From: Chromera velia
Lineage: Eukaryota; Sar; Chromeraceae
NCBI GenBank assembly: GCA_018398765.1
Contig: JAHBMJ010003129.1
Coordinates: forward strand, 29,212-93,211
Direction: 5' to 3'
DNA length: 64,000 bases
The notes beneath the pieces were generated by a model that did not search any database, was not told the origin of the DNA, and saw only the letters and a program-made list of their open reading frames with translations. The position numbers and the translations under genes are program-made. Below, piece after piece: positions 2,377 through 54,411 of the stretch (position 1 is its first letter; each line of letters opens with the position of its first letter).

Positions 2377-2891
2377 TTAACCTGCATGGTCTTTGCAATT
2401 GAAAAATGAGTACATTAACAGAATCTGAAGCTTGGAAACGCGCGGGGACGGCATCAATCAATTAACAAGGCACTACGAAAGACGGACATTTTGGCGTTTA
2501 CGAAGAGGCAGGATTCTGTTGTGCGGGAAAAGTGAAGCAGAAACTTCCACTGATGCCGAGCCGTCAGCTTGAAGAAGAAACATGAGCTGAAATAAATGAG
2601 ATTTCCCCGCTCTGGTCACAAGAATGGAAGGAGGGAAGAAAAAACATCGATCCGAGACGGCTTGTCTTCCTGGACTAATCATGGGGCCACGGTGGGGAAA
2701 CCTGTCTCCCAATCTTTCGAATCAGACAGACAAATGATGTCAAAAAGGCAATCAGGAAGCTGCTTTGATGTTCCCTGGCATGCACATTTGTCCACTTGGT
2801 CACTGTATGTCATGACCTCTAATCTATATATCGATATAGCTAGATGACTCTTTGCACGATCGAAACGACTTATATATTGATGCTGCGACTT

Positions 2892-2962
2892 CATGCACCC
2901 CGGCGGGGCCCAGGAGACGACCGGCGGCCGCGCGCGCCGCGCGGGGGCCCGGCGGGGGCATG
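2892..2962. repeat. GC-rich imperfect palindrome (island 1)
   Basis: A 71-bp block that is almost all G and C lies in AT-richer DNA. It starts CATGCACCCC and ends GGGGGCATG, and the two ends are near-complementary, so a long hairpin can form around a CG-alternating centre. Four similar GC-rich palindromic islands occur in this window. Confidence 0.7.
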
Positions 2963-3208
2963 AAAGTCCCGGCCACAAAACGCTGCTCCCACGCAAAGTT
3001 CTCCTCCTTCTCAGACTCTCTTTCTACCAGTATAGTCCCAACCACTGGCTCGATCCCACATCGTCAGACCTTGAGATTCTGTCTTGACATATTTGTGTGC
3101 CAAAATTGTCAATCCCTGTGACGTCTGTGAAATCCCACAAGGAGCTCCGAACTTCCAGTAATTTGGTTGCCGTCTCGTCTCCGCGATCTGTCATGAGCAC
3201 TGCTGAGG

Positions 3209-4959: not shown

Positions 4960-6536
4960 TTTCCGCCTCTTCCTTCTCTGAAGCTGTCTTGTGTGATGAC
5001 TTCTCTCGTCCCAACTGAAGATGGAAAAGAATGCCCTGCCATCTTGTCACCAACACCCAAAAATTTGATGGATGAGGGAACGAATAAAGGGGCGCGGGAG
5101 AAGCCTCTCTGACAGCTGCTCTTTTGATGCCTCACGCGAATAGACAGACACTCAGACTGCCACTTCCCTCTCTCTGTTGAGCCTCTTGCCCCCCTGACTC
5201 TCTGGTATATACACGAGCCAAGAAAAAAGTAAGCGTGCGCATGAGAAAGGCTTTCTTATTCGGTGTTGCCCTTCTTCCTTCAGGGCGTGGCTACCGCTCC
5301 CCTGATCTTCTCTGCGGCAGGTTCCCAAACAGGGAGCTCCGGGAGGGAGACGGAGAGGGAGGTGGCAGGGCTGGTATCGAGAAAACTTCGGGGAGAGGGG
5401 GACCTTCAAAAGGTCTGTTCTGCCATTTCCTTCCTTGTCTGGGGACCTATGGGATGTTTTAGTTTTGCTTCGTTTGCAGACTTGCAGAAAGCCAAAAATG
5501 TGCTACGTGTGTCTGGGGAGAGTGCACGGTGGTTTCTTCTCTGCTGCCCGAGGTTCTTCCTTGTGTAATCCATTGTGGTTGGATGTTTCCCGCACAGTGC
5601 GGTTGTTGCCAGTGACGCGGTACTCACGAAGAAACAACTTTTGTTCTTTGTCTGCTTTTGATGAGAAACGTTGCGTGGTCTGAGATTTGGAAGTTTTCCG
5701 GGACGGCTCGTCTTCGTACCGTTTCCCTTTTCATAGGAGAATTTGGCAAGTGCTCTGAGAGTTGGATCGACTGTCAGAGTAGGAGCGGAGGCCTCCGAGT
5801 GGGTGCCTGATTCGTCATTTGGGGAAATCTTGTGGCTGTGCTTTGTTGGCATGAGAGCATTCTCATTTCCAGCATACTGTTTAGTCTTTTCCTCCGATTG
5901 TTTGGGCTGCCTCGTGAATCCTCATATCCGAGTGCAAAGAGAATCTCTTTTATGGCTCTTGAAAAAGTGATTTTGCTTTTTTACTGCACAAACGGGTGCA
6001 TCCATCCAATGTGCAGGCCGCTCAGCTGATCGAGGGGGGGCTCGGGCTGCAACGAACGCGCGCAGCGGTGGGACTCCATTGCAGGCAAGTCCAGGGCGTG
6101 TATTGTGAAAGTTTTCTGCATGGGTGCCCTCCCGTGTGAGTGTCCACAAGTGTGCCCCCCTCCGTGTGCGCGTGTGTGTACCCGTTTGCAGGCGTGCGTG
6201 TGTGTGTGTGTGTGTGTGTGTGGGTGTGTGTGTGTTTGTGTCCATGTCGGTGTCCGTGTGCGTGCGTACCCGTGTCTGTTCTCCTCGGTAGTCTATTGGT
6301 ACGTCAACGCGCCCACTATGTTTCTGGCACATTTTCCATTTCTTTTGCAAATCTTTCCCTTGCTGCATGAGTTGCCGCTCGCTAGTTTGCACGTGAATTT
6401 CGCATCCCTTCGTGCATGCAGACGCACTCTCGATCTCTTGAAAGAGGTTCCGCCTGGCCACGACGGCCGTCCAAATGTGTTTGTGAGGGGACTTGCGGCT
6501 CTTTTACTCCACACCGTAACAAGAACAAAAGGATGA
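3209..6536 (+). CDS. Long-chain polyprenyl diphosphate synthase (solanesyl/decaprenyl type), 6 exons
   Basis: The enzyme condenses isopentenyl diphosphate onto an allylic primer to build the prenyl tail of ubiquinone (or plastoquinone). Exons: 3209-4112, 4408-4475, 4747-4821, 5284-5412, 6017-6084, 6422-6536; joined length 452 residues, phases consistent throughout. Seen: GKRVRP substrate loop, first Asp-rich motif in LMHDDVIDAADKRRG, GELVQ, YLQKTFYKTA, second Asp-rich motif YDDLLDM (made only after joining exons 2 and 3), and a C-terminus with RTR spacing typical of the family. The residue five before the first DDxxD is Ala, as in long-chain enzymes such as IspB. The first about 40 residues are rich in Arg and His and nearly free of acid, suggesting a mitochondrial presequence. 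The ATG at 3209 is the first after an in-frame TGA. Intron 5 appears to use a GC donor (CAG|GCAAGT at 6085). Intron 3 holds a TTTC-type microsatellite. Exact chain length is not readable from the sequence. Confidence 0.92.
4838..4963. repeat. TTTTC/TTTC microsatellite in intron
   Basis: About 125 bases of pyrimidine-only TTTTC then TTTC repeats inside intron 3 of the polyprenyl synthase gene, just downstream of the GTGAGG donor at 4822. Confidence 0.9.
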
Positions 6537-7116
6537 CCTCATTGCTGCACTGGCACCTAGACTGGCACAGCCGCACAGATATAAAACTATATATTTCGAT
6601 GATGGTTTCGATCGCTCAAAAAGATTATAGTTCCCAAAATTCCTTAAAAAAATTCTAAAGAAATTGGTAGATATCTGTCTGAATGCATACAATAGTAGGT
6701 GCAATCGAGATAAGTGCGCATAGAGGGATGCATAGCTATAAATGCATAGATTCCATCATATCCAGCGGCTCCTATGACAACGAAACATTCGGAATCATTT
6801 AAGTCACTGCCAGTTACTGCCAGTGAATCAAATTTATGTCAGTGTTGCTAGTGGAGTTTGTGCGGCTAACTGTTGGATACATATCATAATTGCAGGTGTG
6901 CCGAAAGGATCCTAGACTAGATCTTAGATTCTAAACCTAGAACTACAAAGTCGATATCGAAACCAAATGCTAGACAGCGCCTTATACAGACAGATAACGA
7001 CAGCTAGTACAAAATGATAATTATGATTAACACTTAAATAAATTTACAAATTATACTACAAATGCTGAATTAAATGACCAAATCGATTGGTCTTGTACCT
7101 AGTTTTTTGCTTTGAG
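6537..7116. other. AT-rich intergenic region between convergent genes
   Basis: This gap lies between the 3' ends of the polyprenyl synthase (+) and the LRR gene (-), so it should contain both poly(A) sites. It is AT-rich with no open frame of note. I cannot point to a specific polyadenylation signal. Confidence 0.6.
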
Positions 7117-10100
7117 TCAAGAATCTACCATTTCAGGAAATCCCTTTCTCAGCCACACAGTTGCAACATGGCTAATCCTGTTTCGTCGAAGATTCACTTT
7201 CGACAGGGAGGGAATCCTCCTTGAGGCAAGGAAATCTGCCAAACTCTCTGCCCCCCCATCAGAGAGACTGTTTCTCTGCAGGTCGAGAAGGTCCAACGGA
7301 GGGGGGGTGCGATTGGTCCAGGCATTGAGAAGTGCCTTCAGACCGTCATTACTGAGCGATGACTCATAAATGCTTAACATCCTCAACCCCGGAAGCTTCT
7401 GAGCGTCAAGCGCTTCAGAAAGAGCCGCTTCTTCGGATTGGAGGGAGATTTGTCGGAGCGACAGCTCACGGAGGGAAGAGAGTTTGCCGCTCCGAAGCCC
7501 CGCACACAGGGCGCGGGACCCGGAACGGTCTTGAATGCCCTCGACCTGCAGAACCTGCAGTTTGGACAGATAAGTGGAAGCCAGGGCAACACAGAAGGTT
7601 GCCACCTTTGCGGACGCATCGAGATCGGGGGGATCATCGGGATCGCAGAACTGCACCTCAACCCGCCGCAATGAGGCGGCATGGGGGGAGCCGAGGGTGT
7701 TAGCGAGAAGTTGCATTTCCTGCAATCCCGTGTCTTTTAGGTTCAGATTCATTTCTGTCAAGCACGGCACTTTGCCTGCAGTCACGAGACGAGAGAGCTG
7801 CGGGCTACAGCGGTGCACGTGGGGGGTGGTTTCTAATTTCTTAAGGGATGGGAGACAATGTGAACCCCTCAAAATCCCTCCGAAAAACGCCTGAATTCTT
7901 TCTGCAGGGGGTCCATAGCAAAACTTAAGAAACAGTTCTTCTAGGAATTTCATGGCGGCCCCTGAATGGGTCAACGCCCCCCCCAACGCTTCTGCGGTGG
8001 CTGCGGACGTAAATCTGCAGTCGGCAGACAATTTTTGCAAATATGAAATGTGACCTGAACGAATCCCCTCAGCGAGACGAGAAATGGCGGTCTCATGGCC
8101 AGCAGAATACTCAGTCTGCAGGTCGAGTTCCATTCTCATTAAGGCAGGGGGAGAATTCCCGACACACAGCCCTTCACAGAGAGCAGAAAGCAGTTCGGAA
8201 TCATACACGGTCAAGCGCACACGACGCAGGGACGGGGCCTTGCCGGTGCTCAGAACCTCACCGAGCGCTGAGCCCCCTTCCCCACTCGCGCACGACACTT
8301 CTAGATCCAAATCTTCAACCAACGGCATGCCACCCCCACCCAGACCCTCTGCTAACCCCACAACACCCCCATCACTTTCATCGTCCACAGGGCAATCGCA
8401 TCTCAGCTTCAACTTCCTCAGAGAGGAAGCCCCCCCCGACCCCAACGCCCTCCCCAATGACGACATTGTTGCAGATCGAAGGTAACCAGCCCAAACATCA
8501 AGATGGAGGGTCTCAATCTTCCCCACCTTCCCTTCCCCCACTGCCCTGGCAAGGGCCTCCACTGCCTCATCACAAAGCATTTCTGAGACATATGAAGAAA
8601 TGCAAACCTCAATCGTGCGGAGAGCGGGTGTTTTGTCGTGGGCAGTGGCCTCAAAAATTGCCTTCATGTGCTGAAACGACAAATCTAGACGCTCTCCTAA
8701 CCTGATGCGGCACAGCTGAGAGAGACGGCCGTTGTGCAGGGCATTTGCAAGGGCCTGCATGCCTGTTTCCTCTTCCCCTTCACCCACCCGTCCCTCATTC
8801 TCGCCCGACAGATCGAGATCTTCGAGGAGAGGAGCACCCCCCTCTCCGAGAGCGTTTGCGAACGCCGCGGTTTCCTCGGAACTCATCTCTGTGTCAGAGA
8901 GCTTGAGGACTCGCAGTTTCGGGAAACGACCGGCGGCCACAACAGCCGCAGCAGAAACACGCTCTGGCGCCCCCTCAACCCCGAGCTGTTCATCAAACAA
9001 ACTGTTTTCACTCAGGTCTAATTCCTCCAACTCTGTCAGCTGGGTGGTGGAAAGCAACGCTGAGAGCGGAGCGTAGTCTCTCTTTTGTTGCACCGAACCG
9101 GGACTAATCGGTGTGAGAGACAGGCTGTTGTTCTTCAAAAGCAAAACCCGCAGGAGAGGAACCGCACCTACCTCACATACCCCAGCCACCAAATGTTTGA
9201 ACCCCCCCGCCCCCATGTCATTCCCCTCCAAATCAAGGGAGCGCAGGGAGGTGACCCTCTTTTCTTTCAAGGCCTTTGCCAGGGCCTCCACCCCCTTTGC
9301 CTTCGCCCCCGTACGAGCGAGATTCAGGGACTGAAGGGGGGCAGCGAGACCGCTCGCGAGCGCCCGCACCCCCAGGGGTCCGAGGGGATTGTCGCTGAGG
9401 TCCAGACTTAGAAGGGAGGGGAGCCAACGAGCAGTGACGGCAGCGCTGAGTGAGTCCATCGAGACGCTGCGGAAACTGTTGCCTGCAATCGACAGAAAGA
9501 AACATCGGTTGGGAGCCAGAGAAGCACTTATTCATAGAGTCAAGCTAGGCAGATTGCTTGGAAGGATCGTACGGAATCAACGGCAGAAAAGTTGAGGTCA
9601 GGATAGACACAGGTCCACTATGAAAATGTCGGATTACGTTTTCGGCTTGACGAGAAAGAGAGCAGACAAAAGAGGAATTCGCATCCCACGACACCATTCA
9701 TTTGATGCGAAGGCGAGCCAGCACTCATCTGTGACTGTGCACTCCCCCTTCTCATGTTTCTCTCGAGAAAAGCTGCAAAAGAAAAGCCGAGAAACCTTTC
9801 AGGCATCAGCAGGAAGGAAATGGCAGAAAGACAAGTAAAAATGGGCGAGCTGTCATGGCAAAATGCGAAAAACTTCTCGTCAGAAAGACCTTTCAGATCG
9901 AGGAACTCCAAGGAGGGCGGAAGTGATGGGAAAAAAAGCGGGTAATCGTTCAGGTCACATTCTGCACTCACAATGCATGCATGCATGCACAAAGCTTGTC
10001 TGCAGACCAGAAGAGCGGAAGCTTCGAAATCAGAAGGAAAAAGGGGCAAAATTTGAAACCTTCGGAACATGCACTCCCGACCTTCCCCGCGTGAACCTGT

Positions 10101-13514: not shown

Positions 13515-16500
13515 ATGCGCTCTTCCTGCAGAGGCTTCAGGCGGCTTCAACACCGACTCGAACGTCGCCTGCGTCCCGTTCCATCGACCGTTTTCTTTAC
13601 GTCTACCTCTGGAAGGTTCTATCAGCAGTTGTGCCTGCTGATTTTCACCGCAATGTTTCTCACATGCTCCGAAGGTCAGTTCGGCTGTGTGAGACGGCGT
13701 GAATAGAGAGACATCGGCACGGAGTTTGGACAAAGAGATTCCGCTTGATCCAAAGCTTTGGCTGCTTTCACGCTCAATTGCATCACCATGCACTTCTAGT
13801 CTCTCCCTCTGGGGTAGCAGCTGACATGTTCGAGAAGGTGTCGTTGCAAGATGAAGGCTGTCTTGCTTGCGGTACTGAAGACATAATTGTTTTCTCCTGA
13901 GTGTAGTGATTTTGGGTGCTTGCCCTCTAAATAGATAATTCAGAGTCCTCCTGACTTGACAGTCTTGTCTCATGCCACTTTGCTTCTCTTCTCCACGTTT
14001 TCCACCTTCGGATCGACCTTCAATGACCACAAAAGATGCTTGATTTGCTCTTTGTTTTTTGCTTCTCCCCGACACTCCCCGTTCTTGCTGCACTCAGCAG
14101 CTGCCCCGCCAACAAGACTTATTGCACAAGGGAGTAGGCACACTCTCGCGTTGAACGACGAAGGAGAGGTTTCTGCTTTCGGCTCCAACGGGTCCGGACA
14201 GCTCGGTTTGCCAGAAGAAGAAGATGGGAGTGTCCCAACAAAAGTCCCGGGGATGTCTCATGTTGTTGACATCTGTGGGGGTGGAACCTCTTGGAAAGGT
14301 GAAGGCTTTTCGCTTGTGCTTTTGAGAAATGGAACCGTACTCTCATTCGGTGTGAACAGCTCAGGCGAGTTGGGACGCAGGGATGCGGAGGTCGAGGGAG
14401 AGGAATCCAGCCAACGGAACTGGCAGCCTCGGCCTGTAGAGGGGCTGGAGGGGGAGAACGTAACGGCGGTGGAGTGTGGAGTTTCTCACAGGTCTGTTGT
14501 GGTCTCTCTGCGTGTTCAGCACCCGAATCCTCCTTGAGTGAAGAGCCTTCCGTGTTCTGTGTGATCAGTTCTGCCATTTGCCACACACGTCTCCCTGTGT
14601 CTGTGCTGCCTTTGAACTCTCTTCACCAGACCTTCGCGCCTCCCGCCGCTCCATAATTTGTCTTTTCAGGTTTTCTTTTCTTTAAATTAAATCTGCCGCC
14701 TGAAAGTCTGCGTGCTGTCTGCCACCTGAATATCCGACACCCTGAGTGTGTGCTGCTTTCTTCCTGGCTTTCTTGCAGCGCTGCGGTTACCGCAGACGGC
14801 AAGCTGTTCATGTGGGGAAATCTGCGCCACACACATTCTCATAGGGAAGACGCACTGCCAGTCTATCGGACGGCCACCTTGGTTCGCTCAGGTCCCCTTG
14901 CACACGAGAACGTCACTCAGGCTGCGCTTGGGCGTTATCATACTATGATTGTGTGTGAGTCTGGGAGGGCATACTTTTTTGGGAATAAGGTGCGGGCTGA
15001 GGACGGCACGTGGACTCCCGTGGAGTTGGTGTTGGAGGGATTGCAGGAGGAAGAAAGAATTGTTTCCGCGGCCGCGGGTGGCCGCTATTCTCTCCTTTTG
15101 ACCTCTCTCGGGCGAGTGTTAAAAATCAGGTCATCGTGGAATCCAAATGACGGCTATACAAAATTAGATGTCCCCCGGAAGGTTGTTGAGGTTGCGGCAG
15201 GCTCAAAGCATTTCTTTATCCGTCTTGAGGATGGAAGGGTCTATTCTTTTGGAGGACACAACAGCAATGACTATGGTCAGCTGGGAGTTGGGGGTCCTGC
15301 ATCCCTTGAACTTCATTGGCGTGATCAGATATCTCAACCCCGATTGGTCCCTCAAATATCGGCGCAAAGGCTGTGGAAAGGGGGGGTGTCGATGTCTTCT
15401 TCCTTTCTGGTCACAAAGGGGGGGGTATACGCAGCAGGAAGCAACTGGTTCGGGGAGCTCGGCCTGGGAAAGGGCAGCGTCAACAAGACAACTTCTTTCC
15501 TGCCGATTCCTGGTGAGTGATCGCTTTATTGGGGGTGGAGAAAGAGAGAGACATTTGTGCGCCTTGGCGAAGGCAAACAGACTGCCCACTTCTCTTGACA
15601 AATCTTCCACAGTCTTCGGGCGAGGTCTCCATGCAGCTAATCGCTGACGCAATTGTAGAAATGCATGACTCTCGCACATTTTCTTTCCCCTTTTCTCGCA
15701 TGCCGTTATGCTTACTCGCAGCGCTGGACGTAGATGAGTGCAAGCTGGGGGGTTGCGATGCAACGGCATCATGCACCAACACGCTCGGGTCTTTCTCTTG
15801 TGAGTGCCCCGATGAAACATCCAGCAGTGGGGGCGGTGCCTTGTGTGGTCAGTCAGCCTGCGGACCAAAAAGTCAAGACGTGCACAGTGACCTCATTTTG
15901 CAAATGTCCTGATGCGAAGAGAAACAAACAAACTTCTATTCGGTACAGCCGTGTACGTGTCTGCTTGCCCAACTGCTTGCCTGCCTGCTTGCCTTCCGGC
16001 TTGCCTGCCTGTATCTGCCTTTCCTGCTGCTTACTGTACTATTTCTCTATCATGTAGGCAGTTTTTCTGCTTACCCATCTAACTTCAGAGCGAGCAAGGA
16101 CAAAAAAGACGGGAATCCTTTCGTTTGGTTTTTCGTGCTGCTTTCCTTCCTTCTCGACTTCTTTTCTGTCTGAAGGCTCCTCTGCGAGTGCGAAGTGGGT
16201 CCGGATACAGAGAGGAAAGGCAGAAAAGAAGCACCGTTGAGTTGTCTGAGCGACCGGTCTGGCAGTCTGGTTGTCCTGCTGCTCGGTTGCATGTCAGCCT
16301 TCTCCCTGAGAGCCGGTACCCAAAGATTGATTGGGTCTGCGAGTTGGACGGAGTATTAAAACTGTGTCTGTCTTGTTGAAAGGGTGTCTCTGAGGCCTCG
16401 GCTGGTTCTCGCATATGTCGAGTGAATGCTCAGTTGCCGATGTGTGTTTCCATATCCGCTCAAATGCTGTCGAACGAACAAGCTGCCGTTCCTTCTAATG

Positions 16501-18373
16501 CGTCACGTAGTCCTCTCCACTTGTGTGTACTGTCCTAATATTCAGTTGGCCAACCCACTCTTGTAGCACAAGGACGCGTGCACGCCCTTTTCATCGACAA
16601 GCACGGCGGTCTGTTTGGGTTCGGCTCCAATACATATGGGCAACTGGGCTCCAGTGAAGGTGAAAGCAGGGGTATTCCCACCAGAGTTGCTGGGGTTTCT
16701 GGCGCTGTTGACATCTGCGCGGGCACAGGCTTTTCGCTTGTGCTCTTGCAAAATGGTACCGTCCTTTCATTTGGATCGAATCACGATGCAGAGTTGGGAC
16801 GCAGGGATGCGGAGGTCGAGGGAGAGGAATCCAGCCAACGGAACTGGCAGCCTCGGCCTGTAGAGGGGCTGGAGGGGGAGAACGTGACGGCGGTGGAGTG
16901 TGGAGTTTCTCACAGGTCTGTTGTGGTCTCTCTGCGTATTCAGCACCCTTTCCTTTATGGAATCCTCCTTGAGTGAAGAACCTTCCGTGTTCTGTGTGAT
17001 CAGTTCTGCCATTTGCCACACACGTCTCCCTGTGTCCTTGCTGCCTTTGAACTCTCTTCACTAGACCTTCGCGCCTCCCGCCGCTCCATAATTTGTCTTT
17101 TCAGGTTTTCTTTTCTTTAAATTAAATCTGCCGCCTGAAAGTCTGCGTGCTGTCTGCGTGTGCTGCTTTCTTCCTGGCTTTCTCGCAGCGCTGCGGTTAC
17201 CGCAGACGGCAAGCTGTTCCTTTCGGGGGTTCTCCTAGGTCACCCTAGTCTGAGCACGGACCCACCCATTCACCGCACAGCCACGTTCGTTCGCACGGGT
17301 CCCCTTGTATACGAGAACGTCACTCAGGCTGCACTTGGGCGTTATCATACTATGATTGTGTGTGAGTCTGGGAGAGCCCACTTTTTTGGAAATCCGCTCG
17401 TTGGCACGTCGAACGCCCCCGTGGAGTTGGTGTTGGAGGGACTGCAGGAAGAAGAAAAAATCGTTTCCGCGGCTGTAGGTGACCATCACTGTCTTCTGCT
17501 GACCTCGGCTGGGCGAGTGTTCTCTTTCACTTTTGGTCGGTTATTGGATCCTTCTTATGACGTCTGGGGTTCCCGTTCGCACCCACGACTGGTCGAAACT
17601 CGCGGACAACAGGCCGTGGAGGTTGCTGCGGGAGAGAGTCATGCAGTCATTCGGCTGAGGGACGGGAGCATTGTCTCTATTTGGGAGAGACTCAGTGATG
17701 ATGATATGGAGAACCTCTCCCCAAGTGTGGCGGTGCAAAGACTGTGGAAGAGTGGGGCGGGTTCCGACTCCATGGTTCTAATCACTTCCAGCGGTTTGGT
17801 TGGTGCGGGAAACAACGACAGAGGCCAGCTTGGGCTAGGAGGCATTTACGGCTTCGACGTCCGTTTTTTTGTTCCACTTCTCGGTGAGTGTCGAGCCTGA
17901 CAGAATGCGTTTCTTGTCTCTCTTTCCTGTCTGTTCGCATTTCTTTTCGCCTAACGCACCGGAATGCACAAAAACGGACATGCAAGATGGACGGACGCGA
18001 GAGGCGACAGAGGAGATAACGATGGAGTGCTAAGTAAACTGACTGAAAAGGAAAGAAATGTATGTATTTTTGGAGAGAAGCCACAGAACTAGAGACAGAG
18101 AGTGCATGAGACGACCCCGTACGTAGAAGACAGACAGAGACGCGGGAAGACAACCCAACATGCATCCATGCATGCACGATGATCCATGCGTAAATAGACA
18201 GAGAGGAACGACAGAAGAGACACGGAGAAGAGAAAACGTTCGCACGCGCGGAGAAAATCACAGAGAAGGAGAAAATTATCGACTGCCTGCCTGTATGTAC
18301 GATTGTGAGAGTTTGTGACTCTGTATGCGCGTACGCATGCACGGTTGTATACATATATATGTATACACATATG

Positions 18374-18417
<44 letters not shown>

Positions 18418-19394
18418 CACGCACCCGTGCCCACCACAGATACTTACCTTCCCAACAAATGCCGGCGTTTCTTATCGGGTATCCAAAGAGGACGATCTTC
18501 TCCAGTACTTTCCACTTGTCTCCCAAGAGAGAGGCGCTCATGAGAGGGACGGGGGAGTGATGGTGCCTGCCGAGGGAGTCCACGCGGTTCACACCGAGTT
18601 TGTACCAGCCTACCATCCCCGTCTATTTGATGCCAGAAAGCCCGAGGAAATCATTGCCCGTCTCACTGACCCTTGGTCGGAGCAGAATACTATGACTTGC
18701 AAGTTCACCGTCCAAATCACGGGTCAGCTTGTCCACCAGTCTTCAGAACATATACATAGGTCCATGCACAAAGCTCTTTCAGTCTACCATCAATCTGCTC
18801 TTTTTGTCTGTGGTGCATCACAGGATGCCAAATAAATTTTGCTGTTGCCGAATTTGAATGGACGTCCAGGCCTTCTCGTGAGATTTTGTACACATCAGGC
18901 AATTCAATCAGCCTATCGAATCGCAACCTGTGAAGAGTGTTCAGATGGCGAATCGATTGACGCTTGTGCGCATGGTCTTTGTGGGTGTGGTCCGTGTTTG
19001 CAGACGAAGAAGCTCCACAGGTCTTTTGCCCGCCGTTGATGACCCTGCGACAGCAGAAGGGGGATCTCCCTCCTGTTGTCTTTCTCGAGAAACCGCCGGC
19101 CCGGGACAACGTAGACAGCGAGGATGAGCTCAACATCACTTTCTCACCTCCGAACAACAGCAAGCTCGACTTTGGCACAGAGCACGTGGTGACCGTCACA
19201 GTGAAAGCTGTGGATCGCTCTGAGAGAGCGGGATTCTGCACGTTCCCCGTCATTGCTGACCGTTGCCCTCCCAACTCCCAGCGAGAGACAGCGGAGGGGG
19301 ACTGCATGCGCAGGTGCGAAGCGCCAACTGTATTCTGTAGTCGGATTCTCTCTCCGTCCCTCTCTTTCTCTCTCTTTTTCTCCCTCCCTTCCTC

Positions 19395-19459
<65 letters not shown>

Positions 19460-22400
19460 CAACATCTGTGTTCGGAATTTTTTTTTTTTCTCTTCCTCTC
19501 CAGATCACTCTGTGTTTGATTATGTGGCCGTACGATCGTGGCGAACTCTCTTTTGTCCTCTTTCTGGTCATGAGCTTGAGCTTCGAAAACATTTTTCCGG
19601 GTATTCTCAGTTCAGCATAAGCAAGCGCCTGCACGAGCCCGTCTTTGCGCCTTTTTGCAGAGCGTTTCGCTGCTTGGCTGCCCCGCTTCTCTCACTTTGT
19701 GTGCCTCTTGACAAAAGGCGATTTGTATACACTCCCGTTTTTTTCGACGGATGCTTCAGTGTCGCTTGTCAGCGTGTTCTTCAGCAGTCAAATGATTTTT
19801 CGTGGACCCTGACCTCTTTCGCCTTCCTGCCTGCGAACTGCAGAGAGGGTTTCTACCGAGACCCGATTCTCTGGAACAAGATGCACGTGACCGACTGCCG
19901 ACGGTGCCCTGCTCATTCCACCAGCAGGGTGGACAGTAAGCACCCCTCTGAGTGTTTTTGCGATGACGGCTGGTATTTTCTGCTCGCCCTGCCCGAACAC
20001 TGGCGACAGTGCTCCCTATTAGAGGCTTTGGCGACAGGATGCAAGAGCAGCAATCCCAAGAGGCTCTGTGCTGACGATGCTCTGACAGCTTTCACGGAGG
20101 GATGGTGCGAGCAATGCCCCCCGGGCGCGGACTGCAGCTGGCATGCTCAGCGGCAGAGAGCGTGTCCCAGGTATGACCGTTCCCAGTCTGGCAGCTCGTG
20201 TAATGATTTCATCGCCCCGTTTACGTCCCAACTGCGAGACAAGCTGCGAAAGTTAGATGATCAGGAGTGCCCAACTCTCTCCAACAGCAATATCCTCTCC
20301 CTCGAATCAGAAGGTCGCCGTTCCCTGGAGCACAACGATACGACATTAAAGTTCGCCCACGACCTTCTTCAGCACCTGAGACCTTTCCCACGTGAAGGTC
20401 ATTTTCTGTTGCAGCGCTGGCCAGAAGTCTTGGTCTCGCAGTGTCCATTGAAGAACGCCTGTATTGGAGCAACTACAGACGAGAAAACCGTCAGAGAGCT
20501 GAGAGCTTGCCTCCAGAACGACACCTGCGGAGGTCTGTGTGAAGAAAATCACGCGGGGGTCAGTTTGCGTGTCATCTCACGTTTCGTGCTGCCTGTGGTA
20601 GAAGAGACCGAAAATTCGAATTCTCCTGGTGCTTTTGCACTCAAATTCCGTGCTTGAATGTGCGGCCGTGCTTGAATGTGCCTCCCTGGATGTTGCACGG
20701 TCTGTCAAGTCCGTCGGTTGTCCTGTGTCGATTGCTTTGCTTTAGAGTCACGCGACCTTTGGACGTGAATCAGGATCAATTAACTTGCGTCTGTTTTGTC
20801 GGAAGGTTGCAAAAGAAAGAAGCTGTGCGAATTCTGAAGGCAGAGTCTCCCTGCGTGTATCAACGTGCAGCCCCTCTGCAATCAGTGTAAGATGGGAACG
20901 AGAATGGAACGCCGATCAGGGATGTTGGAGAAAAGTTGCGGGCAGTGCCGTGATCAAGACTACGTGTTCCTGATCGGAGCCCTTCTTTTTCTGGCAGCGC
21001 TACTGGTGGTTTTTATCCACGTGACGATTGCATCGAAGAACTACCCGCAGCTCGAAACTCCAGTTTTCGCCGTGGCCATCAAAATTGCTATGGTTTTCGT
21101 TGCTAGACAGATGGTGCTGGCAGAGTTGGCGGGCCCAGCATTCGTTCAGCTTCGCGGAGAAATTGCATCCGCACATGGACTTGCAGTTCGCGGGGCGTCA
21201 GGGGCTGTGGGCATTCTCGGTCGACTGCGGATGCTGCCGTCAATGAGTAGCGTCTTCAGTCTGCAGTGCTTCTCTTTCGCCTTTTTCCATGAGGCTCTTG
21301 CCACGGCTCCAGAGTCTTCCCAGGCAGTCACACTTCACCTCCTCTCGCTATTCGTGCCCGTATCTGTCTTCGTCGCCTTCTGCACTCTCAGATTCTTCGT
21401 CATTTTGATCGGGCTCTTCCTGTCGAGGCTCTCTGGAAGGAAGAAAGCCTTGCGTGCGTCAAACGGGACTGTCAAGCAAGAAAGTGCGCGCAGTCGAGCC
21501 CCGACCGACGTTTCCATTCAACCTGATGGGGTCGCTGGCCGGCTTGTTGACAGTCCGCGATGCAAAGATGCGCTGGTTGATATTGAGTCGAACGAGAGTC
21601 CGCCCAAGAATGTCGTCCAAAAGGATCAGATTCTTCCCAACAGTGTGGTGAGGAGCACCTTGTTGGGGGAAGCAGACAGTCAAAAGGAACGAGAAAAAAG
21701 AGTTCGCAGACGTAACAGGCGGCGGGCTCGATTTCTCGAGCGTTGCTGCAGCGGAATTTCGACTCCTCAACACCACTCTGGGTCGGATTTCCGGCTCTGC
21801 TGGATGGGATGGTGCCTCTGATCCAGTCCATCATGATCATCTGGTTCGACAGTCTGGTTGGTGTCCCCATCTCCACCATCCGGTGCGAATCTCTGCACCA
21901 GAAGATGACCGACCGTCCCGTCCTCCATGTTGACTACTCCCAACCATGCTCTCAAGAAGTTCAGCATAGTCTGTCGTTTTGAATTGCTCTGTCCAACACC
22001 TTCGTTGTCACCCTCATCTTTGTCGTAGCGATTTCTTGGGGCCGTCGAAGTCACGAGAGCAAAACTGGCCCTGTGCCTGCGCAAGCTTTCGTGACTCAAA
22101 GGAAGGAAAAACGTGCAGGAGAGTCTGCTCCAACCAGCCCCTCGAGCTACAGGGCGCTGATCAAAAACAACCCCCGGGTGCTGCAGGCCCTCTTCCATTG
22201 GAAGTACAGTATTTTCCTAGGAGGGTATCGCACAACATGTTGTTTCTGGGAGGCGATTGTTTTCCTCCGCAGATGGAGCCTGTTACTGATTTTTCTTGAG
22301 AGAGACTACAGGTTGAGGTTCACCATCCTCAATGTTCATGCCGTCATCTTTTTTCTTCTGCAGGTATGTCGGCAGACGGGGGGAAGCAGGGGTAGACTGG

Positions 22401-24772
22401 AAGCTGAAAGAAAATCGAAAACAACCAGTGGAATGGAAGGAGTCTGCGGAAAAAAAGCAGACAATGCCGAAGAGAAAAAATGGAAAAGTGACCATGATAG
22501 ACTGATTTGGAGAAACGAAAAAAAAGTCAAGAAATGCAGGCGTTCTTTTGTCCCGGGCCTGCGTATCTCTCTGTCCTTTGGTCTCCAAACCTTTTTTGCC
22601 CCTGCCTGCATTTCATGCTTGCAGATCATCGCGTGGCCGTACGAGTCCCCGTACCTGAACTGGCTGGAGACCCTTTCCGTTGGCTCATGGCTCATGACAA
22701 CTGCCATTTTTCCGGTGAATCCGATTTCTTACCAACCCATTCATACAATCACTGTGTGTGGTGCGCGTTCAGCTGATGCCCTTTTCGCATAGACACTGTG
22801 TTTAGTGATGTTTCTCGGAAAATGTCGACATGTGCTTAGCTCAAATCCTAAAATGCCATCCATTTCGATGCCCGCCACTTGCCTGCAGTTCTTTGTCAGC
22901 AAGCTTGTGCCAGTCTTTATGAAGGTTGCCCTCGTGTACATCGTGGCCCTTCCTTTCCTGGCCTTCGTGCTCTTCGCCGTCTTCGTCATCGGGGGGGGGC
23001 TCGGCAAAAACTGCCTAGTGAAACTCTCCAGCCCGCCCGCAAGGGTAACGCGCTGGCGGCGCTTTATGGCTTGGTATGGGGACTGCGTGACTCCTGTCGT
23101 AAATCGGGCTCTGACTTGTGCCTGCTGCTGTAGGTCCAGGACCTCCGAAAAGACTTGCTGGCAGAGACTTGCAAGCTTCTGGAAGAGATGCTGTGCTGTG
23201 GCATCTCACGCGTTGACTTGCGCCTGCTGCTGTAGGTCCAGGACCTCTGAAAAGACTCGCTCGCAGAGACTTGCAAGCTTCTGGAAGAGCTGCTATGCTG
23301 TGGGATCTCACGCGTTGACTTGCGCCTGCTGCTGTAGGTCCAGGACCTCCGAAAAGACTTGCTCGCAGAGACTTGCAAGCTTCTGGAAGAGCTGCTATGC
23401 TGTGGCATCTCACGCGTTGACTTGCGCCTGCTGCTGTAGGTCCAGGACCTCTGAAAAGACTCGCTCGCAGAGACTTGCAAGCTTCTGGAAGAGCTGCATT
23501 TCTGCGGCGAGGGATGGGAGGGGCGAGATGGAGATCTGCTTCGAACGAGGAAGGACTGGGCAAGTGTCGGATAATTTTGTGGTGAAGAAACGCATGTGTT
23601 TTGATCAGGAACCCACTGGCACGTTTAGTGGGAGGTCTGAAGAAGTTCGTTTATTCCGTCGCACATGGACTGAAGTGAGAGAATTGATCGAACGTGTAGA
23701 GTTTGCGCTCATCCGAGCGATGGAGAAAAGGAACCTCACGCAACGTGACGGTGACAATGGGTCAGGCTCTCTTAAGTTCCCTTGTCCCCCGGAAGTCGCA
23801 GCACCTTTCGCAATCCGTGCGATCAGCCTTTTGAACCGACAGATGCAAAGAGAACCCCGGTATGCCCAAAAGATCATCGACGAATCCTTTCGCACCACCC
23901 CGACAGCAAAGCTGAGTATCGTCCGCAGCTCCTTAAACACAGAAGGGGGGGTTAACGTCCGCAGAAGCTCCACAGGCACAGAAGGGGGGGTTAACGTTCG
24001 CAGAAGCTCCGCAGACATAGAAGGGGGGGTTAACGTCCGCAGCTGCAGCTGCGCAGACACAGGAGGGGGGGTTAACGTTCGCAGAAGCTCTGCAGACACA
24101 GAAGGGGGGGTTAACGTCCGCAGCTGCAGCTCCGCAGACATAGAAGGGGGGGTTAACGTCCGCAGAAGCTCCGCAGACACAGAAGGGGGGGTTAACGTCC
24201 GCAGCTGCAGCTCCGCAGACATAGAAGGGGGGGTTAACGTCCGCAGCAGCTCCGCAGACACCAGTAGCGGAAAGGGTGACGCCACAGACACCAACGCTAG
24301 GAGCAATCCTCTCAGATTCGTGGAAACCGATAAAGAGGCTCGACGCCGGCTTCTACTGGAGTGGAATGTATGTGAGTTGCCAGAAGACCAATCGATTCTC
24401 TTGACAGATCTTTTGTCCTTCGAGTCGCAGCGTGCAGTATGTTGTAGTCCCTCTGAAGGTGCCGACCAACAAGGTGGGCTTTTGGAGGGGACAGAGCATC
24501 GCGAAGGAGGTGATCCTTCGCGCCCTACAGCTGATGGAGATTCTCAGCAGAGGGAGCAAGAATCCAACGGGGGGTTTTGGACTGATGCAGACGCAAAAGT
24601 CGCGGAGACCTCGATTTGGAGTGGGTTGCTTGAAGGGCGGGTGGACTTCTCTGGGAGGGAAGCAGCTGGGGAAAGGGTTTTTTTTGTCCAACAAGTTTCA
24701 CAGAGGAGTTGGGGGGGGGTTGCAGGCTGGTGCGACGCTCAAGGAAATTCGAGAGGGTGTGCTTCTTCTTGA
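13515..24772 (+). CDS. Giant RCC1-EGF-RCC1-HYR-HYR-Cys-rich multi-TM membrane protein, 13 exons, one in-frame TGA
   Basis: Probable cell-surface protein; ligand and function unknown. Exons: 13515-13674 (signal-anchor, hydrophobic stretch LCLLIFTAMFL), 14098-14491 and 14779-15512 (first RCC1 propeller, about 376 residues), 15722-15847 (Ca-binding EGF, DVDEC start), 16546-16915 and 17189-17883 (second propeller, about 355 residues), 18417-18722 and 19004-19313 (two HYR domains), 19844-20558 (cysteine-rich, GCC2/GCC3-like), 20844-21647, 21752-22363, 22625-22714 and 22889-24772 (about ten membrane segments, then a repeat-rich tail). Junctions are phase-consistent and rebuild motifs, for example GVSHSAAVTADGKLF at both propeller joins and ITDEEAPQVFCPP between the HYR exons. 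Joined length is about 2,400 codons. A TGA at 21980-21982 interrupts exon 11 between two membrane segments although the frame continues on both sides. The 3' end is uncertain: from about 24437 two frames are open and later exons up to about 25.2 kb are possible. Confidence 0.82.
14350..14800 (+). repeat. Intragenic duplication, copy 1 (exon end, intron, exon start)
   Basis: The end of RCC1 exon 2, the intron and the start of exon 3 are repeated at 16790-17210. The intron portion (about 14520-14770) is nearly identical to its partner, apart from a roughly 26-base segment before GTGTGCTGC that is absent from the second copy and a short insertion at the partner's 5' end. Confidence 0.9.
16790..17210 (+). 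repeat. Intragenic duplication, copy 2
   Basis: Partner of 14350-14800. Exonic bases from GTTGGGACGCAGGGATGCGG to the donor and the following intron match copy 1 almost base for base, while the exon halves further from the intron have clearly diverged. Confidence 0.9.
21980..21982 (+). other. In-frame TGA within exon 11 of the RCC1/multi-TM gene
   Basis: The frame reads ...HSLSF, TGA, then IALSNTFVVTLIFVVAISW, a clear membrane helix, and stays open to the donor at 22364. No AG acceptor lies shortly downstream that would let an intron remove it in frame. It may be a true inactivating mutation, an assembly error or a recoded codon. Confidence 0.85.
23100..23500 (+). repeat. 117-bp coding tandem repeat, four copies
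   Basis: Four 39-codon units in the last exon of the RCC1/multi-TM gene, each encoding ACCCRSRTSEKT followed by QRLASFWK. Units 1 and 3 share EKTC and units 2 and 4 share EKTRSQ, so the array looks like two copies of a 234-bp dimer. The segment follows the last membrane helix and would be cytoplasmic. Confidence 0.95.
23935..24262 (+). repeat. VNVR-type coding tandem repeat with G7 tracts
   Basis: About nine short units of 13-14 codons with the core EGGVNVR and a Ser-rich end (RRSSAD or SCSSAD). Each unit contains a run of seven G followed by TTAACGT. All units keep the reading frame. Confidence 0.93.
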
Positions 24773-25597
24773 GCACTTACATCCACAGCTGCTTCTTCAA
24801 GTATGCTCGTGGATTTTTCTGAGTGGTTTGCATGCTTTGATTTCACTCTTAGCCTGCATGGGGTGTGAGGTTGCCAGACTTCATGTCAGACCCTGTGTTG
24901 CTATTCCTGCGCTTTTGCAGTGCATTCCCTCTGCAGGCCGTATCTCCTCATATGAATATTATGATTCTTTCCATTTGGGGGAGCATATCCTGTCCCTTCC
25001 TGTGTGTGAGCAGCTCTACATGCTTTATCTGGCTGGAAGTTACGACACCGCAGAGCAATATCCAGACGGAAGAGGATGAGAGGAGATCGACAACTCGGAA
25101 GAGGTTTCACTTCACAGAGTGGTCAAATCTGTTCGGTACGAAACAGAATAGGAATTAGTGCCCAGGGTAATGAGAAAGGGCCCGGCTGTGTCGACTTCTC
25201 GATGGAGAGCGCTGTCTTGCGGACTGGTGCCGGTGCTTCCTCAACAGCAGGAAAAACGACTTCCTCCATGACGAACTCTCTCTCAGGGACCGACTTCATG
25301 GCGCACTCCACTTTCTCTTTTCCTCCGCCTTCCTTCGCCGTCTTTCTTATATAGCATAGACCCGTTTTTCAAGAAGCTCTGCCTCCGGCCGTTGTGTGTG
25401 TCTGATTCCGCTGTCTTTTGGAGAGTCCTGGGCAGCTATTGTAGGGTCGAAAGGAGTGAATGCTTTGACTTGGACCGCTCTCTTGTTTCATTCAGTTTTC
25501 CGCTGAATCTCTCCAACAGGCTCCACCGAGAATCCAGGATTCAGCAACTTATGCATGCTTTCCCTTTCCCCTTCCCTGTTTGTGTGTTTGTGTCTCA

Positions 25598-25633
<36 letters not shown>

Positions 25634-25662
25634 GCTTCTCTTTTCTTCTCTTCTCTTCTCTT

Positions 25663-25702
<40 letters not shown>

Positions 25703-26465
25703 CGTTGGTGTGTGTGCGTGTGCGTGGTGTGCGTGCCTGACTGGTTCACCCACACAGCGAGGGGACAGGAGGGTCATGTATGAAGGTGTTGTGCCGACCT
25801 GTTTCAAGGCTGTTTGGCTGGCGTCAATATTGAGAGACTCGTCATGGGTGTGATGAGAAGTGCTTATTTTTAAGCAGTATTGAACAGCTTCAATGAATCG
25901 GATACATACTGGAGGAGACCATATTTTAGGTGACGCAGCGTCTTTCTGAAACAATCTTTCAAAGTGTTGAAACGAAGATTAAACAAAGAAGAGTCAAACC
26001 CTATGAAAAACAGCATACGTTAACCTAATGTATACGTTTGAGCTGATTTCGAGGCTGATTTCTATGTTAATTTGAAAGGAAGTTCAGCGATGCCGCACTG
26101 TAGCTAGGCACTGTAGTATAGTATTATAAGTGTTTGATTAATTGAGTAAAGTGATTCTGCTTAGCTGAAGGATGAAGGAAAGGTGGCATCCAGTGGTGCA
26201 ACTAGTCTATATGTAGGTATGTATTTGTCACTATTTGATAATTGAGATCGAATAATTGATGATTCTAGTGATGATTTAAAATATACCTAGATTTATGTAT
26301 GATCATTATACGTCTGGAGATATGCTATCGCCATTGTCCTAGCTCTAAGCCCTAGTCTAAACCTCGAATGTTTCAAGCGTTTCAAGCTGTGTAACCAGCC
26401 TGTGTTTTACAGCAAATCGCCGGCAACGCCTAAGGCAACATACAAAATAACTTGGTTTTCACTAG
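24773..26465. other. 3' flank of the RCC1 gene and AT-rich intergenic DNA
   Basis: The first few hundred bases may contain further 3' exons: the frame containing AGATLKEIREGVLLLEHLH (24725 on) ends at CAA|GTATGC, and another short frame ends at a stop at 25158. A TGTC, TTCTC and CT microsatellite lies at 25600-25700. From about 25.9 kb the DNA is AT-rich with no gene that I can support. Confidence 0.45.
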
Positions 26466-28718: not shown

Positions 28719-29871
28719 CTCTTCTCATGCGCACCTGTGAATAGACTTCTTTTCCTGCATTCGTCTCAGCTGAATAATCCGCTGTCCGTCTCGTTCTGTC
28801 TGTCTGTCTGACTGTTGTCTGGTTGACTGACCTTTTTGAGAATCTGCCGGAAGACCTCTGACTGAGAAGGTCTGAGCCCCCCAGAGAACTTTGAAAGCAC
28901 CTGCATGGACAGACAGGCAGACACATTCGAGCCCTGGCTGTAACATCGTTCTACGGTCGAACGGTTTCCCTTTTTTCTCCTCTCACCTTTGTGACTTCGC
29001 CGCCATGTACCCTTTTTTACAAGTGTGATCATCACTTGATTTTACCCCAGTCAGATATACAGTAGACAAAAAAAAAAAGAAAAAAACCTGCCAACCTCTC
29101 CAGTCGTACGCCTGTAGACGACTTTGCCGCCCTCAACTTCCACCGCCGCGTCGTGAAAGAATTCGATCAAAGATGCAGCCAACTTTTCGTCCGACGCACC
29201 CAGTCTCACGCCCCCCCTCTCCCTCTCCCTGTCCTTCTCTCTGCCAGGATTTGCAGACGAAAAACTCTCCGCAAAGGGCCCCCCGGCCGCTTCATCAACA
29301 CCCTCTCCCGAAAAGAAACCTTCGACCCCCCCTTCTCCTTCCGCTTGGCCTTCCGCGGCCTCTCGAGACGCCGCAGCAGCAGCGGAAGAAGAAGAGGAAG
29401 AAGAAGATGCTCCTACTGCCTGCGTGCGACCTGACGCAGCCCTGAGTCTTGCCAGGAGTTGCTTCCCTGCACCTCCTACTGCAGCACCCCCTTGAGCGTC
29501 TCCATCCTGCATGGGCCCCGGCATTCTCCTCTTTACCATTTCGTCCGCTTCCTCCCGAGCCTTCTCTCTCCGTGCGTGCTTTGCCCTCTGCCTCTCATCA
29601 GAGACCGAGAGTCCTATCGGAGCTCCTGCCTCTCCCTTGCGGCCTGTCCACGTTGGAACCTGAGAACAAGAGGACACAAAAAAGACAGACAGAAGGATTT
29701 TCAACTGTCAACTAAGCCACGAGAACGTCCAACTCAGGCCAAGTAGAAAGAACACAAAAGAGAGAATGGCTGCCCGGACACATAATCAAAAAGTCAAAGT
29801 CCCGGCATTGATGACATCCATAGACCCTCCAACATCTTTACGAGGAACCCAAGAGAGGGTAAGCATTGGAA

Positions 29872-29902
<31 letters not shown>

Positions 29903-29908
29903 GGGAGG

Positions 29909-29939
<31 letters not shown>

Positions 29940-32149
29940 CGACTCACCGAAATCGAATGAGAGCTCCTCTCTCGGGCAGATTTCTTTACGAGACTCAGAG
30001 CTGCTTCAGCTGCAAGTAGAGAACAAGAAGAAAAAGATGGAGCGGCGTATCAACCAACACAGACCAGGCTCACTTAGTGCGATCGACAGAATAGACAGAT
30101 AAATGGATGTTGGCATACCACAGGCAACACCGATTTGCGGACAGAGGAACAAAAACGCATCATACGAAAAAACCCAAGTCAAAAGTAGAGAAGATGCACT
30201 CTTCATTCCATCCCGCGATCCCTCGACAAACAAACAGCATTTCCTTCCGCGTGCGTTAAATTAGAAATCAGGCGCAAAACCTCCAATCCTCTGCCAAAAA
30301 AAGAGACGTATCACAATCTTCAGACTGGGTGTGGCAAAGGCGCTGCATCATGAGGAAAAAAACACACACAAAGAACGCATACTGGAGCAACACCTCGACA
30401 CCGACGCAGAGACCGAGTGGCAGAGTCCACAACGAGAAACCACTCTCCCATACTTTCATCGACATACTAACCGATTTGCTTGCACTGTTCCGTCCACTGC
30501 CGCGTCTCCTTCTTCCCATCGCCGTCTCCTTCCGTATCCAGAGCGAAGGCCGCCTGCAAGATGAAGGAGAACAGAAATTGATGCACACATACGCAGTCAC
30601 TCATTGAGACAGACAAAAAAATTAGCCAAAGAAAATGAAAATCCGAGAGGAACAGGAGGAGTGCACGTCGACATGGATTTGCGACCCAAAACAAATAAGT
30701 CAGGAAAAAGGCATGACAAAGTAACCCCAACGGAGAAATCGTGAGCAAAAAGAAAGACAGACAAATAGAAGAAAGGAGTCCTCTTTCCTCAGATGCCAGT
30801 TTGGAGAGTCAAGTGCACATCATGCATCAGCTGATTTTCCTCCCTGATAGATCGATCGACTATGTCCGACATCAACAAGACCGACTGACCTTGATTCCAT
30901 CCCTATCATACAACGACTTCAACAAGGTGTTGTGTTCCCTCTCATCTGCTGCCCCGTCCTCTTCCCCCTCTTCTTCACCCTCATCTCTCCCTTCCCCCCC
31001 CCCTCTCTCTCGAATACCACGACCACCCAATCCCACCGCCGCTGCCCCAGTCTCAGAGAAACCCCCCAATCCTCTCCTGGAACGGGATGGGGCGGGTGCT
31101 GCCGCGTCTGCCGCTGACGTTTCTTTTCTGGCGGCGGCCACCAGGGACTGCACGACCCGCTCCTGAGAGCGCCCCGCCCCGCCGCCGCGAGCACCTGCTG
31201 CTGCAGACAACGACGCCGCCGCTTGGGGTGCTTCTCTGTTCGGAGGCGGCGGAGGGTCTGAGAAGAGATCCCTCAGGTCTGACCACTTGAAGAATCTCCT
31301 CTGACGGGGATCCTCCAAGACCTTCTGACTGAGGTAGTGCTTGAAGATCTGGCGGTGATAAATCTTCTCTTCTACCGTGCCTGCCGCCAGGAGACGGTAT
31401 ACGGTCACGTCCTTCTTCTGGCCTATCCGCCAAGCACGCTCTCGTGCCTGAATGGATTCATACGGATAGCAAGGCCAAAGTCTGATGATTGCCTCTATCT
31501 GAGTGGAAGAAGGGAGACTTTTCAGAGAGTGCGACCATCAGAAAGAGACAAAGAAACAATCAAGAAAAGCTGCAAAATCCCTCAACAGAGACCAGGGAAA
31601 CGGGAATAAAAAATAAGACAAAAGAAAAGAGAGCTGAAGCAACACACACAGAAAGGAGTGAAAAAAAATCGTTTTCGTGTTAAACAACCCTTCTCCCACA
31701 ACCACGCAGAACAATTTTCCTTCTTTCTTTCTTCTCACCTGCACGTCAGTCATGGGATTCCAATCTGGATCGAAGATCACCACCCTGTTTGCTCCCGTCA
31801 GATTGACCCCCAACCCCCCGACTCTGGTGGTGAGGAGCATGAGGAAAATTGACGACTCAGGATGATTGAATGCATCCACAAGTTGAAGCCGCTGTGTCAT
31901 CGGAGTCTGCCCGTCCATTCGCGCATAGGGCCACCGCTGGAGTCCGGATCTTCCCGTGATCGTCTCCCCCTCCTCTTCCTCTTCCCGTGCATCCTGATTG
32001 TGTTTGATGATTGCATTCTGAATCACCTCCAGCATCTGGACAGTCTGGGAGAACACTAACGCTCTGTGCCCCTCTCGCCTCCAGAGGGCGAGAACCTCCA
32101 GCAGGACCTTCAACTTTCCAGACCTGCCACCCACCCACCCACCCACCCA

Positions 32150-32220
<71 letters not shown>

Positions 32221-32301
32221 GGAGAGGGGGAGAGAGAGAGAGAGAGAGAGCGACCGAGAGAGAGAGAGAGAGAGGGGGGGGGAGAGAGAGAGAGAGAGAG
32301 G

Positions 32302-32348
<47 letters not shown>

Positions 32349-33346
32349 AGAGACCAGGGTCAACCAGGTGGACGAAAAAAGATTCAGAAGGCGACGGACA
32401 ATACAGAGAATCCAAAAGATTCAGCATGGATCTTTCAAGGCCATTTTTTTGACCAAACATTCATGTCTCAAGTGAACAAAATGACAAGGAGAAGAGTCCC
32501 GTGGCCACAGGCACGACAAAAAGTTGCCCGGCGGAAGAGACACAACTGTCCGCATGAAGTGAGTTGGTCAATAGAAAACGAAGAGAAGAGAATAGGACCA
32601 GAAAAGTCTTGAAGGAGCACGAACCCACCAACCGAATTTCTGTCCCAAAGTCTGGGGGTCTCTCCATCTCGGGACAGGCCAAGAGGAGAAGGTCAGGGTG
32701 GTTGCAGATCTTTCGGAGAACTCCGAGCGCAAAGAAGGCTCTGTACGTGTTGCTGCAGAGTTGGAGACGGAAAGAGAGGGGGACAGGGAAGAAAGCAGGA
32801 GAAAAAGATGAAAGACAGAAAGCGCCCTTCATGGGTTGAGCACGCAATTGCAGTGCATGGGCCCCCACTGGATAACCTCTTGTGAGGTTGCGTTGAGGAA
32901 AAAAGGAAAAGAGAGCAGAAAACAGGCAGGCCACATGTCTCCTTTCCTTCCACCGCAGACGCACTTACTTTTCTTGTGCGAGGGTTTTCCGTTGCGCTGC
33001 GAGAAACTTCACGTACACCTGATGCTGGGCCTCCGAGAGGTTGCAGAGCAGCACCTCCTCCCTCTTTGAAGGGAGAGCCAGGAGGTCCTGTAGCTCGGCC
33101 TTGTTGCGTCTCAGAAGAAAGGGGGAGGTCAACTCACGGAGAAGAACCGCACACCGATACGCGGCCTCGACCCTTGCCTGTGAAGCATGCGCCATTCCAC
33201 CCTGCACGTACAACAGAAGACCAAAGAAAAGACAGTCAGGTCTCGACAAAGGCCCATGGACGAACGCCAGCTGCATGTCCACATAATTCAACTGGAACAA
33301 TAGATGGATGAATCCATCGACAGACAGACACACACACACACACACA

Positions 33347-33384
<38 letters not shown>

Positions 33385-54141: not shown

Positions 54142-54405
54142 GTAGAAAGATGGCAAACAGACGGCAGATAGATGGCAGGCAGATGGCAGACAGACGACAG
54201 ACAGACGGTAGACAGACAGCAGACAGATGGCAGGCAGACGGCAGACAGATGGCAGACAGACGACAGACAGACGGCAGACAAAGGGCAGACAGACAGCAGA
54301 CAGACGGCAGATAAACGGCATACAGACGGCAGACTGACGGCAGATAGACGGCAGACAGATGGCACACAGACGGCAGACAGACGGCAGATGGACGGCAGGT
54401 GGAAG
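54142..54405. repeat. 11-bp minisatellite
   Basis: About 24 tandem copies of an 11-bp unit close to AGACAGAYGGC. It ends where the 48-bp array begins. Confidence 0.9.
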
Positions 54406-54411
54406 GATCTG

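Follow-up and report, generated by a model that had tools for sequence, protein, structure and literature searches.

The window analyzed here, a stretch of 64,000 nucleotides of Chromera velia DNA (C3048:29212-93211 of a 178-Mb assembly), carries a locus that we read as one, probably decayed, member of a family of receptors that resemble the cysteine repeat modular proteins (CRMPs), with a proposed contact-sensing mechanism; we put the probability of this reading at a little under 60%. The domains of this family follow a recurrent order, the family is expanded in the genome, and the window copy contains breaks in its reading frame. A typical member would begin with a signal sequence and continue with one or two RCC1 beta-propellers outside the cell, accompanied by a calcium-binding EGF linker, two HYR-type Ig-like domains of which the first is divergent, a Cys-rich stalk, approximately nine transmembrane (TM) helices and a long, repeat-rich cytoplasmic tail. 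The original prediction, of a membrane protein with several domains and receptor-like character whose RCC1 propellers sit among modules of secreted type, is well supported for the family by open reading frames, splice phases and gene linkage.

Domain order in the window copy

Exons 1-10 of the window gene (13515-21644, plus strand, as are all parts of the gene described below) are separated by nine in-phase GT-AG introns, each between 209 and 719 nt long, and together provide 1521 stop-free codons. The chain of 13 phase-consistent exons originally proposed therefore holds as far as the loop after TM3; beyond this point it runs across frame breaks that had gone unnoticed. Exon 1 (13515..13674) encodes a segment resembling a signal peptide or signal anchor, as read from hydropathy only: the hydrophobic stretch LCLLIFTAMFLT is preceded by an Arg-rich lead of about 38 residues, and this basic lead is unusually long. 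RCC1 repeats of the first propeller follow in exon 2 (14098..14491, Pfam RCC1, E = 3.1e-21; acceptors at 14101 or 14104 are alternatives, with all three sites in phase) and exon 3 (14779..15512, RCC1_2 3.2e-19, RCC1 1.8e-18). A calcium-binding EGF domain in exon 4 (15722..15847, EGF_CA 2.5e-8) links these to the second propeller in exon 5 (16567..16915, RCC1 3.3e-20) and exon 6 (17189..17883, RCC1_2 2.4e-13, RCC1 1e-10). When the window was searched exon by exon, RCC1 and RCC1_2 exceeded the curated Pfam cut-off in these four exons, placing them in the RCC1 superfamily; with EGF_CA between the two pairs, the predicted succession of propeller, Ca-EGF and propeller is confirmed.

N-glycosylation sequons in the window propellers number 6 against 2.1 in shuffled sequences and 4 against 1.5, and this excess is not clear in four paralogue sequences read in frame. 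The propeller units at 14404-14812 and the matching part of 16567-17300 have a tract of about 400 bases in common, which spans an exon end, the intron and the start of the next exon. Identity reaches 95-100% per 60-column block within the tract and ranges from 44% to 93% in the other blocks, and because of this difference gene conversion between the two propellers probably accounts for it.

Of the two HYR domains originally claimed, the second stands. It is encoded by exon 8 (19004..19313), which scores 27.8 bits against the Pfam HYR cut-off of 21.7 (E = 3.2e-6), and five of its ten homologues match HYR at E 0.01. UBX is also matched by two of these ten sequences (best 2.8e-6), an identity that we take to be spurious. 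The first, in exon 7 (18417..18722), is better described as a divergent HYR-like domain: the window copy has no Pfam match, one of six homologues (that on C3222) matches HYR at 2.1e-4, and hhalign aligns the two domains weakly (E = 2.4e-4, probability 43.6). The membrane-proximal Cys-rich region in exon 9 (19844..20558) forms a conserved stalk, with 34 invariant columns across seven sequences. In the window this stalk has no Pfam match over cut-off, and in the paralogue L031 it gives a weak match to EGF_TEN (E = 0.02). Neither an ephrin-like nor a GCC2_GCC3 match was returned by Pfam for the window or paralogue proteins searched, so the families that the original prediction named were recovered for RCC1, EGF_CA and one HYR domain, and not for GCC2_GCC3.

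The last Cys module and TM1-TM3 lie in exon 10 (20871..21644). TM4-TM7 are encoded at 21752..22363, TM8 at 22625..22714 (splice sites placed by eye), and TM9 together with the cytoplasmic tail at 22889..24803. The tail exon contains two tandem-repeat arrays, one of a 102-base unit present 3.8 times (23112-23497) and the other of a 39/81-base unit present 8/4 times (23937-24261). Raw hydropathy counts depend on the threshold, with seven hydrophobic segments in the window pieces at 1.5 and ten at 1.1; the core of L031 also gives ten at 1.1, one of them an Ala-rich loop that we discarded. Our reading of nine helices combines hydropathy with paralogue alignment, dropping two weak segments and adding a sub-threshold TM8. 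The "about ten" helices first suggested are thus not contradicted by the raw range of 7 to 10, and alignment with the paralogues leads us to prefer nine. The TM core and stalk have no Pfam or PDB match over threshold, and AlphaFold2 models were poor (pLDDT 54.6 and 60.5), making a fold search on them uninformative. With an odd number of helices and the N-terminus outside, the tail would lie inside the cell.

RCC1 propellers are usually found inside cells, and Nd6p of Paramecium is a cytosolic protein that is not known to have secreted modules or TM helices. An inverted arrangement can be imagined, in which the propellers face the cytosol and act as Nd6p does. Like the window protein, Nd6p has RCC1-like domains, and according to the relevant passages of PMC9815656 and PMC9670195 it acts in the same exocytosis process as the CRMPs, with both needed in ciliates and Apicomplexa. 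We nevertheless hold inversion to be very improbable, given that Ca-EGF is interspersed among the propellers, that HYR and Cys-rich modules come after them, and that the paralogue on C3576 begins with a signal-peptide-like segment. A predicted extracellular position of the propellers is the topology that we adopt below.

Linkage of propellers and membrane core in the genome

In the paralogue on contig C3222 (locus L033), RCC1 repeats and TM helices belong to one polypeptide. A first unspliced ORF (2834-4486) encodes a propeller, an EGF_CA domain at the position equivalent to window exon 4, and the start of a second propeller (the last assigned by eye). A second unspliced ORF (5485-8262, 926 aa) then runs through RCC1 repeats, EGF_CA, two HYR stretches, the Cys-rich part and TM1-2. 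A further RCC1 exon lies between the two ORFs, and splicing is needed only for that link, inside the second propeller. The 926-aa protein is collinear with the window at HYR (19000-19308), the Cys-rich region (19836-20555) and the TM segments (20868-21272), and its second EGF has no counterpart there. In this search the RCC1 exons of the window were not among the matches listed, and counts for L033 are lower bounds.

Separate transcripts for the RCC1 and the HYR/TM exons had been named beforehand as the observation that would speak against the model, and the corresponding explanation is that these exons form separate neighboring genes. It draws some support from the 34 of 46 RCC1-bearing contigs on which no linked TM or Cys match appears among the matches listed. 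For C3222, however, it is refuted by the single ORF that joins RCC1, EGF, both HYR domains, the Cys-rich part and TM1-2, while splice phases agree across the window exons and linkage is kept at 11 of the 30 TM-core loci among the matches listed. We consider it very improbable and treat the exons as parts of one gene.

With the TM core of C3287 (L031) as query, the genome yielded at least 42 exon matches, which we grouped into at least 30 loci. At 11 of these 30, among the matches listed, RCC1 lies upstream on the same strand at a distance of 2.5-10 kb (C3048, which is the window contig, C292, C3568, C3576, C4005b, C3287, C128, C3222, C3899, C864 and C3519; the core matches of C864 and C3519 are weak, at E = 2.3e-5 and 4.6e-4). 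Chance would give 0.06 such loci if calculated from 60 RCC1 loci, or 0.05 from 46 contigs. C3736 adds an example of the order RCC1-HYR-Cys. RCC1 flanks the EGF position on both sides in C4005b (EGF_CA 3.8e-7) and in C3568, where the EGF match is weak and under the Pfam cut-off (hEGF 2.6e-4). Genome-wide there are at least 50 exon matches to HYR and at least 150 to EGF_CA; all of these are lower bounds (150 of 381 RCC1 candidates and 150 of 1350 EGF_CA candidates were scored, and the HYR and TM counts are to be read likewise). Because HYR and EGF_CA matches are so numerous, those that bear RCC1 seem to make up a single branch within a wider HYR/Cys/multi-TM family.

Upstream of its RCC1 exons, C3576 (L030) has a start that resembles a signal peptide by hydropathy only, followed by a Cys-rich stretch. 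Extra Cys-containing stretches upstream of propellers, with no Pfam match, occur at L030:8385-9566 (minus strand) and L025:39-593. On C57 an RCC1 match (17226), EGF_CA matches (20783-25906) and two HYR matches (29534-30025) all lie on the plus strand, possibly representing another RCC1-EGF-HYR gene type. The same 178-Mb assembly contains 58 exon matches to the light-harvesting family PF00504 and 11 to alveolin PF12314, the latter model not being alveolate-specific, because a Caulobacter control also matches. We regard the genome as that of a photosynthetic alveolate.

Frame breaks in the window copy

Downstream of exon 10 the frame is first interrupted at 21645..21751, a segment of 107 nt that begins GTGAGG, ends GCTGCAG and, if spliced out, connects frames 0 and 2 without loss of phase. 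It is probably an intron, with a frameshift as the alternative, and it has no counterpart in the aligned paralogue ORFs. Within the following exon (21752-22363), an in-frame TGA at 21980-21982 falls in TM5; in a tblastn search the C3287 core, itself one open frame here, aligns to window positions 21734-22375 straight through this codon. Compared with the paralogue on C292, the last exon switches frame between 24634 and 24663. The gene had been predicted to end at 24772, at a stop that now proves to be out of frame. This cannot be the real end, because the conserved tail continues in the other frame (frame 0) to approximately 24803, matched by C292, C3568 and both C4005 copies. The open frame expected of a functional gene is thus interrupted twice before the end of the conserved tail, at the TGA and at the frame switch, and the window copy is probably either a pseudogene or affected by assembly errors.

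The window copy could instead be an intact gene whose product is a complete receptor with an altered TM5, provided that short, copy-specific introns remove the breaks in the TM region. No stop interrupts exons 1-10, and usable splice sites exist both for 21645-21751 and for a 60-nt candidate intron at 21969-22028, which starts GTCTGT, like two of the propeller-exon introns, and ends TTTGTCGTAG. That 60-nt intron would, however, delete most of TM5, a helix that aligns with intronless paralogues, and both candidates are short beside the 209-719 nt of the nine introns of exons 1-10. Moreover, the aligned blocks on either side of the tail frame switch are 28 bases apart, which leaves no room for an intron unless the block boundaries are misplaced. 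Taken together, these points make an intact copy unlikely.

An intact gene whose breaks are errors of assembly or sequencing is a slightly better, if still doubtful, explanation. As far as the account in PMC4501334 extends, short-read data, scaffolding and gap closure went into the published C. velia assembly, which is relevant if it is the assembly used here. Against this, short-read errors do not typically produce a lone TGA in a TM exon that lacks repeats, and the interval 24634-24663 contains no long homopolymer; the runs of 8 T (24678-24685) and 9 G (24711-24719) fall beyond it. Other copies also carry in-frame stops. When aligned to the C3287 query, the TM core contains them in four of 11 sequences (the window, L027, L030 and L035), and the aligned portions of L025, L028, L029, L031, L032, L033 and L034 showed none; of these seven, L033, L028 and L034 are partly covered and L031 is the query itself. 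Because in-frame stops affect four of these 11 cores, pseudogenes or assembly errors seem to be frequent in the family, and decay is the reading of the window copy that we retain. The core of C3576 has one TAG, at a position where the query has Tyr, and that of C3197 (L035) has four in-frame stops.

Relation to known receptors and proposed mode of action

The membrane core and stalk invite comparison with the CRMPs of Apicomplexa and ciliates, which are described in PMC9670195 and PMC9815656 as having a signal peptide, EGF-like and Cys-rich ectodomains, nine TM helices in Toxoplasma and Plasmodium, and a long cytosolic tail; five TM helices are predicted in Tetrahymena (PMC9670195). In both Toxoplasma and Tetrahymena these proteins are needed for regulated exocytosis and are proposed contact sensors (PMC9670195, PMC9815656), and the cytosolic position of the TgCRMPa tail was inferred by experiment (PMC9670195). 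A heterodimer has been modeled for apicomplexan CRMPs. The CRMP repertoires of C. velia and Paramecium are noted as highly expanded, with a suggested role in environmental sensing (PMC9815656), and the family reported here agrees with that account. The window protein resembles the CRMPs in its Cys-rich stalk and in the Ca-EGF before TM1, and would resemble the Toxoplasma and Plasmodium members in its core if our reading of nine helices holds, a likeness of description rather than of sequence. It is in this sense that we infer kinship with the CRMPs. Unlike them, it carries RCC1 and HYR domains, which are absent from the CRMP modules as described in the relevant parts of PMC9815656 and PMC9670195 (EGF-like, ephrin-receptor-like, Kringle, MAR, C-type lectin, furin-like, Ig-like of the He_PIG type, and others).

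The closest precedent for the propellers is provided by the CRINKLY4 (CR4) plant receptor-like kinases, whose extracellular, RCC1-type, seven-blade propeller is presumed to be a ligand-binding head, and which also have a Cys-rich, TNFR-like part (PMC4617170, PMC12487043). CR4 differs in having a single TM helix and a kinase domain, whereas the window protein has several helices and no Pfam kinase match in its tail ORF. Window exons 1-6 lack the C(X10)CWG motif of the CR4 propeller, and the CR4 descriptions in these two sources, so far as they go, include no EGF or HYR domain, both of which the window protein possesses. Among alveolates, Symbiodinium minutum similarly has many RCC1 genes (189), which PMC4083563 treats as chromatin proteins; the part of that account concerned with this expansion describes no link to EGF, HYR or TM segments, in contrast to the family reported here.

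To call the locus an undescribed system, as was originally suggested, is too strong, because the core and stalk look like those of CRMPs, which are known in alveolates (PMC9815656), and extracellular RCC1-type propellers have a precedent in CRINKLY4 (PMC4617170). A limited literature search found no description of CRMP-like proteins bearing two RCC1 propellers. RCC1, CRMP and HYR are absent from the main text of the chromerid genome paper, by word counts, and from its extracellular-protein appendix, the search being confined to these parts. Earlier notice in the supplements of that paper, or in Templeton and Pain 2016, which PMC9815656 cites for Chromera CRMPs, is possible.

In the model that we propose, the RCC1 propellers would act as ligand-binding heads, by analogy with the proposal for CRINKLY4, and the EGF/HYR/Cys stalk would keep them away from the membrane. 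Contact may be relayed to the tail by the multi-helix core, possibly working as a heterodimer of the kind modeled for apicomplexan CRMPs, and this would in turn bring about a surface response, plausibly the regulated exocytosis of extrusomes or microneme-like organelles. We also raise a broader and more speculative possibility, which is unlikely: that receptors with RCC1 heads make up a recognition repertoire undergoing diversification by birth-and-death evolution and gene conversion within a photosynthetic lineage related to Apicomplexa, and that swappable extracellular propellers on a CRMP-type core sense the surfaces of prey, partner or host and fire extrusomes. If so, this repertoire would correspond, in a free-living organism, to the sensor behind rhoptry discharge in parasites. 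CRMPs are proposed to sense the host contact that leads to this discharge. A free-living alga that has numerous CRMP-like receptors, part of them with well-defined RCC1 propeller heads, would be a setting in which to ask about the ligands of the ancestral receptors. The RCC1-headed family would also take the range of extracellular RCC1-type propellers past the CRINKLY4 proteins of plants.

The neighboring genes are ordinary, and no link to the receptor was seen within the window. They comprise a polyprenyl synthetase (3197-4390, plus strand), a leucine-rich-repeat protein (7120-9531, minus), two nearby ORFs with SNF2-related and helicase C-terminal domains (31541-36995, minus) and a class-V aminotransferase (58335-59432, minus). 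Further along the window, positions 54172-55302 consist of repeated sequence that is open in all three plus-strand frames.
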